In this document: positions 30,313 through 44,515 of the stretch, piece by piece
Numbering within the stretch: the first letter of the stretch is position 1
Layout: each line of letters opens with the position of its first letter
IMG/VR virus record: IMGVR_UViG_3300019890_000006
Location: 1-47,478 of that record
Reading direction: 5' to 3' (one strand)
Origin: a virus
DNA length: 47,478 bases
Made by a program: the position numbers and the translations under genes
The notes under the pieces: generated by a model
What the model was told of the DNA's origin: nothing
What the model saw: only the letters and a program-made list of their open reading frames with translations
Databases searched by the model: none

Positions 30313-30341
30313 ACTATAGGGAGGTTTCTATAGAATGTCAA
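30313..30341 (-). promoter_or_regulatory. Leftward sigma70 promoter
   Basis: Read on the minus strand: TTGACA (30341-30336), 17 bases, TATAGT (30318-30313). Near-consensus. Drives 30271 leftwards. The stop codon of the upstream membrane protein overlaps the -35. Confidence 0.75.
30314..30333. promoter_or_regulatory. CTATAG-N8-CTATAG operator, site 1
   Basis: CTATAG at 30314-30319 and 30328-30333. The first overlaps the -10 and the second the upstream part of the spacer of the leftward promoter. The same spacing recurs at two other promoters. Confidence 0.6.
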
Positions 30342-42669: not shown

Positions 42670-42690
42670 CTATAGATGGTCGCCTATAGT
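42662..42690 (+). promoter_or_regulatory. Rightward promoter with CTATAG operator
   Basis: TTGACT (42662-42667), 17 bases, TATAGT (42685-42690). Serves the single small gene at 42723. Confidence 0.7.
42670..42689. promoter_or_regulatory. CTATAG-N8-CTATAG operator, site 2
   Basis: CTATAG at 42670-42675 and 42684-42689, extended to seven-base arms (ACTATAG / CTATAGT). Same register relative to the -10 as the other two sites. Confidence 0.6.
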
Positions 42691-43863: not shown

Positions 43864-44045
43864 ATGCCGTCTCTCCGCGCTGCCAAGCCTAGTTTACGGT
43901 CGTAAGTTCTCCGGCTTTCTAATAACCCTGTTAGCATCCCGTTTGCCCCCTTCCTTCCTAGGCGTCAGTTGGGCATCATCTAGTTTTTTAAGCTAGTCCT
44001 AGCGATCGAATCGTTTCGCTCGTGTGCCGCCGGTTCAGACGGCAT
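43864..44045 (-). ncRNA. Structured RNA E, 182 nt (unassigned)
   Basis: Nine-base perfect closing stem: ATGCCGTCT (43864-43872) with AGACGGCAT (44037-44045). On the minus-strand transcript, inner pairings include GCCTAG with CTAGGC, TTAC-GACC-GTAA, TAAC-AGG-GTTA, AGCGA/TCGCT, and TGCCC with GGGCA. The last interleaves with the GCCTAG pairing, giving a pseudoknot. No long reading frame crosses it. It does not look like tmRNA or RNase P RNA. Confidence 0.5.
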
Positions 44046-44055
44046 CGTCTGCGTT

Positions 44056-44066
44056 TAGTGCTTAAA
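44056..44066. repeat. Short direct repeat flanking RNA E, right
   Basis: TAGTGCTTAAA; partner of 43849-43860. Possible trace of insertion of RNA E next to a tRNA 3' end. Confidence 0.5.
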
Positions 44067-44136
44067 GAGGATGGGACTCGAACCCACGCGCACACAGTCT
44101 TTAGCTAAGCGCTCTACCCGACTGAGCTACCTCTTT
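44063..44136 (-). tRNA. tRNA-like gene, apparent anticodon AAA
   Basis: 74 nt. Seven-base acceptor AAAGAGG/CCTCTTT, D arm GCTC-AGTCGGGTA-GAGC, T arm GTGGG-TTCGAGT-CCCAT with canonical loop, five-base variable region, A73, CCA not encoded. The anticodon arm CTTAG-CTAAAGA-CTGTG has one mismatch and one wobble and places AAA at 34-36 (Phe UUU if read). A34 is unusual for a Phe tRNA, so the gene may be degenerate or have another role. Confidence 0.8.
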
Positions 44137-44139
44137 AAG

Positions 44140-44152
44140 CCATAAATTGGCG
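44140..44152. repeat. 13-base spacer repeat, copy 1
   Basis: CCATAAATTGGCG, identical to 44225-44237. On the minus strand it holds GCCA, the 3' tail of RNA C, and the AT-rich spacer to the next RNA. Confidence 0.7.
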
Positions 44153-44226
44153 GGAATCGGCGAAGAACCAACATCGCACTTCCCCGTCTTAACGGGGCGT
44201 CGTGGCACCGTTTGACTACGATTCCC
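44148..44226 (-). tRNA. tRNA-like RNA C, degenerate, with encoded GCCA
   Basis: 79 nt including GCCA. Eight-base acceptor GGGAATCG/CGATTCCC, a short D-like arm GTC/GAC, a strong anticodon-like hairpin CCCCG-TTAAGA-CGGGG with a six-base loop, and a T-like arm GCGA/TCGC with an odd ten-base loop. Size, acceptor and 3' CCA say tRNA; the loops do not fit a working one. Could be a decaying tRNA or a tRNA mimic. Confidence 0.55.
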
Positions 44227-44237
44227 ATAAATTGGCG
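44225..44237. repeat. 13-base spacer repeat, copy 2
   Basis: Identical to 44140-44152. Separates RNA B (GCCA end) from RNA C. The repeat suggests a common processing site or array duplication. Confidence 0.7.
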
Positions 44238-44362
44238 TCAGTTTGTAGGATTTCACTACTTAAGCACATTCACCTCTAGGTCGCTCACTCCTCTGGCTAC
44301 CATTTGCTAGAGGGCAAACTCGCCAACGAAGAGGGCCGACTATCACCTCGGCCTAAACTGAC
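44233..44362 (-). ncRNA. Structured RNA B, 130 nt with tRNA-like ends (unassigned)
   Basis: Eight-base closing stem GTCAGTTT/AAACTGAC (44355-44362 with 44237-44244) followed by GCCA, as in a tRNA. Next to the 3' strand is a T-arm-like hairpin GTAG-TGAAATC-CTAC. Inside: hairpin GGCCGA/TCGGCC (44334-44353), a longer stem CTCTTC..TGGC/GCCA..GAGGAG, and hairpin TTTGC/GCAAA. The latter's loop pairs over seven bases (44307-44313 with 44273-44279), forming a pseudoknot. Too long for any normal tRNA; no tag peptide frame is evident. Confidence 0.55.
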
Positions 44363-44369
44363 AAAATTA

Positions 44370-44482
44370 GTGTGAGGCGCTAGCTTAGATAAATAGGGAA
44401 GTTATCGCCTAGTCATCCACCCCCTCGGTAGTCCCTACGACCGGCACGACTCCTAAGTCGCTTTTCGCTCTGTGCCTCACAC
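44370..44482 (-). ncRNA. Structured RNA A, 113 nt, first in the array (unassigned)
   Basis: Nine-base closing stem GTGTGAGGC/GCCTCACAC (44474-44482 with 44370-44378). Hairpins: CGACT-CCTA-AGTCG (44447-44460), CGGT/ACCG (44426-44443) and GATAA/TTATC (44388-44406), all given as plus-strand letters. The loops of the last two are complementary over six bases (TCCCTA 44432-44437 with TAGGGA 44394-44399), a kissing interaction. The promoter at 44487-44515 would start transcription at or within two bases of its 5' end. Confidence 0.55.
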
Positions 44483-44486
44483 GCAA

Positions 44487-44515
44487 ACTATAGAACGTTA
44501 TCTATAGAGTGTCAA
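44487..44515 (-). promoter_or_regulatory. Promoter of the RNA array
   Basis: Minus strand: TTGACA (44515-44510), 17 bases, TATAGT (44492-44487). The expected start, 5-8 bases beyond the -10, is 44482-44479, the first bases of RNA A, so the RNA has no leader. It is one of the two near-perfect promoters in the genome. Confidence 0.75.
44488..44507. promoter_or_regulatory. CTATAG-N8-CTATAG operator, site 3
   Basis: CTATAG at 44488-44493 and 44502-44507, covering the -10 and spacer of the RNA array promoter. Same register as the sites at 30314 and 42670. Confidence 0.6.

Follow-up and report, generated by a model that had tools for sequence, protein, structure and literature searches.

Small RNAs of unknown function recur in the tRNA clusters of bacteriophages, and the species 1 RNA of phage T4 has gone without an assigned function for decades. 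RNAC, as this RNA is also called, and RNAD are late RNAs that are visible on Northern blots (PMC9697503), and the role of both was stated as unknown (PMC3014915, PMC9697503). During the adaptation of T4-like phages to a new host, a parallel SNP was reported to have arisen in the rnaD region (PMC12685909). That the species 1 RNA has a tRNA-like fold may have been noted already in the sequence work of the 1970s.

T4 rnaC specifies an RNA of 139 nt located beside the tRNA cluster (L215:1409-1547, minus strand). Homologues are present in L225-L233, and in EcS1, Kc304 and phiR1-RT they lie within the tRNA arrays. The tail of the RNA consists of a canonical T-arm, CCGGG-UUCGAAU-CCCGG, placed on the acceptor CGAUUCG/CGUUUCG. 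In an alignment of nine distinct members, 13 pairs showed two-sided covariation (0 of 500 shuffles), which supports the acceptor, a long arm, a variable arm and the T-arm, an arrangement resembling a class-II tRNA that has no D-arm. Moreover, a 6-bp loop-loop contact is possible between UUGACG, the apical loop of the long arm, and CGUCAA, the loop of the variable arm, and this complementarity exists in all nine members; two Yersinia phages have UUGAUG/CAUCAA instead, a compensatory C-G to U-A change inside the contact. In Edwardsiella phage PEi20 the long arm is largely different, with both kissing loops kept. Rfam contains no family matching rnaC above threshold.

Here, we analysed a stretch of viral DNA of 47,478 nt (IMG/VR record IMGVR_UViG_3300019890_000006, positions 1 to 47,478; hereafter the window). 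Its genes encode a terminase, a portal/minor-head protein, a baseplate wedge protein, primase, helicase, DNA polymerase and a Gp2.5-like ssDNA-binding protein, a set that points to a tailed phage of about 47 kb with its own replication genes. By TerL, the closest records share 73-76% identity, plus one fragment with 84%, and three long ones, L020, L021 and L022, are among them; TerS and a small secreted-protein gene as further search routes yielded no relatives beyond three records. On the minus strand the window contains a compact RNA operon (44520-44060), in which RNA C, RNA B, RNA A and a tRNA-Phe follow the promoter in this order, RNA B being the second of the four RNAs:

44487..44515, minus strand: sigma-70-type promoter TTGACA-17-TATAGT, 11 of 12 consensus matches
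44488..44507, no strand assigned: palindromic operator CTATAGA-N6-TCTATAG within the promoter, exact match in the window
44370..44482, minus strand: RNA C, 113-nt structured RNA with a 9-bp closing stem GTGTGAGGC/GCCTCACAC and without CCA, from folding
44233..44362, minus strand: RNA B, 130-nt tRNA-like RNA, from predicted structure and shuffle controls
44225..44237, minus strand: 13-nt direct repeat CGCCAATTTATGG, from the end of RNA B to the start of RNA A, exact second copy at 44140-44152
44148..44226, minus strand: RNA A, 79-nt tRNA-like RNA with a GCCA end, sub-threshold Rfam matches
44140..44152, minus strand: 13-nt direct repeat CGCCAATTTATGG, from the end of RNA A to the tRNA leader, exact copy
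44062..44137, minus strand: tRNA-Phe, AAA anticodon, no encoded CCA, called by ARAGORN, Rfam tRNA 54.6 bits

Transcription is predicted to start at approximately 44482-44480, as the end of the -10 element is separated from the 5′ arm of RNA C by 5-7 nt. The RNAs are separated by the spacers TAATTTT (RNA C/RNA B), ATTTAT (RNA B/RNA A) and ATTTATGGC (RNA A/tRNA-Phe). RNA B and RNA A both end with GCCA and are followed by the identical 13-nt string. Given the known substrate preferences of the two enzymes, the AU-rich spacers are plausible sites for RNase E and the U(-1)/G(+1) junctions for RNase P.

The minimum free energy (MFE) of RNA C corresponds to z = -3.53 (computed on 44366-44482), and a 6-bp complementarity within it, UAGGGA/UCCCUA, is a possible internal loop pairing. 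RNA A has an 8-bp acceptor, a 6-nt loop in the anticodon position and a 4-bp T-stem with a 10-nt loop, thus sharing the 8-bp acceptor, the 4-bp T-stem and the GCCA end with RNA B. It scores 26.2 bits against the Rfam tRNA model (gathering threshold 29), and its cloverleaf lies 4 kcal/mol above its MFE. The tRNA-Phe has an unusual anticodon, AAA, and a U-U pair within the anticodon stem; its leader and trailer (44054-44146, minus strand) extend the acceptor stem by 17-nt arms that are 88% complementary. A possible further RNA of about 77 nt lies 3′ of the tRNA (43887-43963, minus strand), bounded by GCCTAG/CTAGGC, and is a weak candidate.

The operator CTATAGA-N6-TCTATAG occurs within TTGAC...TATAG promoters at three sites in the window (44488-44507, 42670-42689 and 30314-30333). 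The long relatives L020, L021 and L022 possess the same operator inside TTGAC...TATAGT promoters, and a scan of all viral contigs for the operator-promoter pattern returned matches only in three related records. Judged from these sites, the three operators of the window, common to the three related phages, form a putative phage-specific regulon.

In all three relatives the promoter precedes a homologue (62-70% identity) of the window gene 43830-43432, while in the window the RNA operon sits between the operator-promoter and this gene. At the same place two relatives have a different structured leader (G001, G002) and the third has no RNA, only a leader of about 40 nt (G003); no tRNA genes were found in the three long relatives. 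Hence, the RNAs appear to be accessory cargo under a phage-regulated promoter, and RNA B seems dispensable in the genus because the three nearest long relatives lack it and one of them lacks any RNA there. The direct position of the promoter before the homologous gene in the relatives, with nothing but a short or structured leader between, is what one would expect if RNA B were a cis-acting 5′ leader, riboswitch-like or an attenuator, for the downstream genes (43830-43432 and beyond). In the window, however, RNA A and an intact tRNA gene lie between RNA B and the gene, there is neither a terminator nor a start-site switching element, and G003 manages with its short leader. We consider a leader function very improbable.

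Three elements from related phages were noted in addition. The leader of G001 (L041:1530-1667, plus strand) contains an acceptor-like pairing GGTGATTT/AGATCACC and a T-arm, GCCGG-TGCAATT-CCGGC (5 bp, 7-nt loop); its tRNA-ended look is only suggestive because its stability does not exceed that of shuffles (z = -1.1). In another related phage, the leader behind this promoter, L042:1524-1580 (plus strand), has an acceptor-like GGGCAGG/CCTGTCC and is more stable than shuffles (z = -2.8). In L132, which is related to the window phage and shares its operator-promoter, an unannotated tRNA-like element lies between two ORFs (L132:13162-13256, plus strand) with the acceptor GCAACCG/CGGTTGC, a D-like arm and the T-arm ACTGG-TTCGATT-CCAGT; with 23.4 bits in the covariance model R2, introduced below, it is a weak candidate.

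The predicted RNA B fold is composed of the following parts:

44355..44362, minus strand: acceptor 5′ strand GTCAGTTT, pairs with 44244-44237, mean pairing probability 0.97
44334..44353, minus strand: H1, hairpin in the D position, GGCCGA-GGTGATAG-TCGGCC, 6 bp, pairing probability 1.0
44288..44333, minus strand: H2, arm in the anticodon position, three helical segments totalling 16 bp and an apical loop of 6 nt, CCUCUA, pairing probability 0.80-0.99
44307..44313, minus strand: kissing partner 1 at the H2 tip, CCUCUAG, 7 Watson-Crick pairs with 44279-44273, duplex -9.2 kcal/mol
44261..44287, minus strand: H3 in the position of the variable arm, 6-bp stem, 15-nt loop, pairing probability 0.94
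44273..44279, minus strand: kissing partner 2 in the H3 loop, CUAGAGG, 7 Watson-Crick pairs with partner 1
44245..44259, minus strand: T-arm GTAG-TGAAATC-CTAC, 4 bp, 7-nt loop, stacked directly on the acceptor (8 + 4 = 12 bp)
44237..44244, minus strand: acceptor 3′ strand AAACTGAC, 8 Watson-Crick pairs with GTCAGTTT
44233..44236, minus strand: encoded GCCA tail with discriminator G, from the sequence

Numbered from its 5′ end, RNA B comprises the acceptor (1-8/119-126), H1 (10-15/24-29), H2 (30-35/70-75, 38-41/66-69 and 44-49/56-61), H3 (76-81/97-102) and the T-arm (104-107/115-118). The helices have pairing probabilities of 0.80-1.0 throughout and meet in a junction with linkers of 1, 0, 0, 1 and 0 nt, thus with two unpaired bases in total. 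An earlier sequence-only reading of this DNA had proposed the 8-bp acceptor stem, the GCCA tail and the 4-bp T-arm-like hairpin with a seven-base loop, all of which we recovered at the same positions on the minus strand. It had further proposed a 7-bp pseudoknot between 44273-44279 and 44307-44313, which is exact (CCTCTAG versus CTAGAGG, 7 Watson-Crick pairs). The partners of this pairing are residues 50-56, at the tip of the arm in the anticodon position, and residues 84-90, in the loop of the arm in the variable position, so that it is better named a kissing contact between those arms. Kissing pairs are beyond the scoring of the nested-fold energy model, and the MFE structure pairs part of that loop locally. 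The same reading had placed a multi-hairpin core instead of D and anticodon arms, and here our result differs: a 6-bp hairpin in the D position, a long hairpin in the anticodon position and a variable arm are present. The order of the arms, acceptor, D position, long anticodon position, variable arm and T-arm, is that of a class-II tRNA. The canonical UUC is missing from the T-loop, UGAAAUC, which would not form the usual G19-C56 elbow contact, and where a tRNA has its 7-nt decoding anticodon loop, RNA B has a 6-nt loop able to pair with the variable arm.

The comparison with shuffled sequences used descriptors chosen after seeing the sequence, so that the following are post hoc tests, which agree with each other. 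RNA B has an MFE of -47.7 kcal/mol (z = -3.48), and none of 200 shuffles was as stable. A five-way junction with at most two unpaired bases occurred in 0 of 1000 shuffles, and a hairpin loop with a perfect complement of at least 7 bp elsewhere in 11 of 1500. The combination of an acceptor, a stacked T-arm and NCCA is not rare on its own, since 0.32 sites are expected per shuffled window on both strands (127 hits in 400 shuffles). No other site of this kind exists in the window, and RNA B falls within the RNA operon of about 450 nt and on the correct strand, where approximately 0.0015 sites are expected. These figures bear on the idea that RNA B has no function itself and descends from a tRNA gene that decayed or was rearranged and now drifts in the cluster. 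Gene turnover in phage tRNA clusters is fast, the adjoining RNA A resembles a defective tRNA and related phages lack RNA B, all of which would fit such an origin; yet drift would erode stems, and what is seen is a perfect 8-bp acceptor, the compact five-way junction and the exact 7-bp loop-loop match. Decay is thus an improbable explanation.

We searched for homologues of RNA B by several routes. With blastn, 50,697 phage records, hundreds of which contain rnaC, gave no match at E up to 10, and plasmids gave none either; the kissing-loop pattern across viral contigs and an exact 26-base pattern from RNA A were equally without result. The sequence-only reading had suggested Infernal for this purpose: a covariance model of RNA B run over the loci and 52 whole records found no homologue, while the same architecture does covary in T4 rnaC. 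The fold of RNA B is hence a prediction from one sequence. Rfam, including tRNA, tRNA-Sec and tmRNA, gave no match at E up to 5, and ARAGORN called neither a tRNA nor a tmRNA at this position. RNA B is not a tRNA, as it has no decoding loop, nor is it a tmRNA or a sequence member of any family tested.

RNA B has the five-arm topology of class-II tRNAs and differs from them by the missing anticodon loop and the 4-bp T-stem. It resembles tRNA-Sec in the 8-bp acceptor, the 6-bp D-stem, the long variable arm and the discriminator G. Small size and a long terminal stem are also features of skipping-rope RNA (RF02924), to which RNA A shows a weak alignment (18.8 bits, far under the gathering threshold of 36.7) and RNA B no match. 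A tmRNA-like nature had been considered in the sequence-only reading, and tRNA-like ends without an anticodon combined with a pseudoknot are indeed what RNA B has in common with tmRNA. However, RNA B has a third of the length of tmRNA and the arm order of class-II tRNA, and tmRNA pseudoknots sit in a separate ring rather than in a kiss between the anticodon arm and the variable arm. The same reading had seen no obvious tag frame, and no frame with a recognisable tag end was detected in the three frames. Together with the negative ARAGORN and Rfam searches, this makes a tmRNA, or a tmRNA fragment that has lost its tag frame, scarcely credible. Three further candidates were rejected. Against a coding region, the 15-codon ATG frame that RNA B contains has no ribosome site and would be expected by chance; a packaging RNA like the phi29 pRNA was considered since the kiss could be intermolecular, but no link to packaging is apparent; and the core is too short for a group I intron in a tRNA.

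Judged by sequence and predicted fold, it is T4 species 1 RNA that RNA B resembles most closely in anatomy and setting, without demonstrable homology. Both are RNAs of 130-140 nt from a phage tRNA cluster, both have a T-arm stacked directly on the acceptor (8 + 4 bp in RNA B, 7 + 5 bp in T4 rnaC), and both combine a variable arm with an enlarged arm in the anticodon position. The contact between the tip of the latter and the loop of the variable arm comprises 7 bp in RNA B, at the sequence level only, and 6 bp in T4 rnaC, where one pair covaries. There is no sequence similarity between the two, and they differ in detail: the acceptor of T4 rnaC has 7 bp with two U-U mismatches in most members, compared to the 8 Watson-Crick pairs of RNA B, and its 5-bp T-arm with UUCGAAU is canonical and its variable arm has 10 bp, whereas RNA B has a 4-bp T-stem. 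T4 rnaC lacks the hairpin in the D position and an encoded CCA; RNA B has both, the latter as GCCA.

This recurrence is relevant for a further interpretation, according to which the tRNA-like ends of RNA B are merely a scaffold for maturation and stability and the core acts in trans, as an antisense or protein-binding element, unrelated to tRNA biology. The operon context and the GCCA end would fit processing and protection alone, most of the novelty of RNA B is in its core, and RNA C, with its 9-bp closing stem and no CCA, illustrates that structured RNAs of this operon need not be tRNA-like. But it is the whole branching order of RNA B and not just its ends that matches class-II tRNA, and this order together with the kiss to the variable arm recurs in T4 rnaC, for which a neutral scaffold has no need. 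We regard the scaffold interpretation as possible but rather unlikely.

A tRNA-like RNA of another kind was recovered in a descriptor scan of approximately 200 fetched loci. This 132-nt RNA (L163:5846-5977, plus strand; further loci are L203:2003-2132, L204:2507-2638 and L205:1503-1634) is not called by ARAGORN. Of 5426 complete E. coli genomes, 159 contain RNAs of this type, as do 92 phage records, and these RNAs are largely unannotated or mis-called as tRNA-Ser, hypothetical protein or 'polyubiquitin-A'. They occur in lambdoid coliphages (HK75), in Salmonella Skatevirus and Akiravirus and in Pantoea phage PdC23; in HK75 the RNA lies between tR′ and the holin gene, and in Akira it lies near a tRNA-Met. 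Its arms are an 8-bp acceptor, a canonical D-arm, an enlarged arm in the anticodon position, a variable arm and a canonical T-arm, and among six members 8 two-sided pairs covaried (1 of 500 shuffles). Rfam has no entry for it above threshold. A covariance model built from these six members (R2) recovered the members and an RNA of ETEP102 (46.5 bits); it did not match RNA B. The ETEP102 RNA (L208:551-654, plus strand) is a shorter relative of about 100 nt just after a tRNA-Arg gene, with an 8-bp acceptor TCTCGGCG/CGCCGAGA, a canonical T-arm and an encoded CCA. RNA B shares with the lambdoid type the 8-bp acceptor and the order of the five arms, while the lambdoid RNA differs by its canonical D- and T-loops and has no demonstrated kiss between anticodon arm and variable arm.

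Taken together, RNA B is probably a stable, non-decoding tRNA mimic produced from a phage operon of the tRNA type. From its position, sequence and operon context, a tRNA-type processing by RNase P with a CCA end is plausible. In the mechanism that we propose, the operator-controlled promoter would give rise to one transcript with RNA C, RNA B, RNA A and tRNA-Phe, from which the tRNA machinery of the host would excise RNA B. RNase P would cut 5′ of G44362, where U at -1, a G1-C72 pair, the 12-bp acceptor/T stack and RCCA are found, and the 3′ end would arise by a cut in the AU-rich spacer followed by trimming to GCCA. The tip of the enlarged arm would then be folded back and held by the 7-bp kiss with the loop of the variable arm, leaving no anticodon free. 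Such a molecule should still be read by proteins that recognize the acceptor/T half, such as RNase P and the CCA enzyme, and perhaps by EF-Tu or by a synthetase for which the anticodon is irrelevant. Since RNA B would not decode and would expose its acceptor/T half, we prefer the view that it mimics a tRNA and engages a protein that reads tRNAs. Most likely it would engage or sequester a tRNA-binding host factor, which could be a tRNA-cleaving defence nuclease, a synthetase or a modification enzyme. The sequence elements with their statistics, the promoter and its operator, the order of the operon and the covariation in T4 rnaC are direct observations, from which we infer transcription, processing, the three-dimensional lock and the decoy role. 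In our view the architecture of RNA B together with its proposed tRNA-type maturation is well supported and the target is a guess. Our leading guess for the job of RNA B, a tentative one, is that it acts as a decoy, either for host factors that bind tRNA or for nucleases.

More speculatively, RNA B, T4 species 1 RNA and the lambdoid RNA may represent a repeatedly evolved class of phage RNAs, the 'locked tRNA mimic', that binds tRNA-reading host proteins, a generalization we offer with considerable doubt. Its members would have the processing and body of a tRNA and an enlarged decoding arm, which in RNA B and T4 is pinned to the variable arm. The unifying architecture appears to be undescribed in Rfam and in the searchable papers, and our literature search on phage tRNA-like RNAs found no description of the RNA B kind; in both cases older subscription literature lay outside the search. 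The resulting covariance models are covered neither by Rfam nor by tRNA finders.

The anatomy common to RNA B and T4 rnaC, with its testable contact, provides a concrete hypothesis for RNAs of this kind, namely that they are tRNA mimics kept from decoding. If the mimicry is true, it offers a way to find their binding partners, and it would add an RNA-based route to the known phage counter-measures against tRNA-targeting defences. If the reading as a class holds, these RNAs might blunt tRNA-cleaving defences or capture a synthetase during infection.
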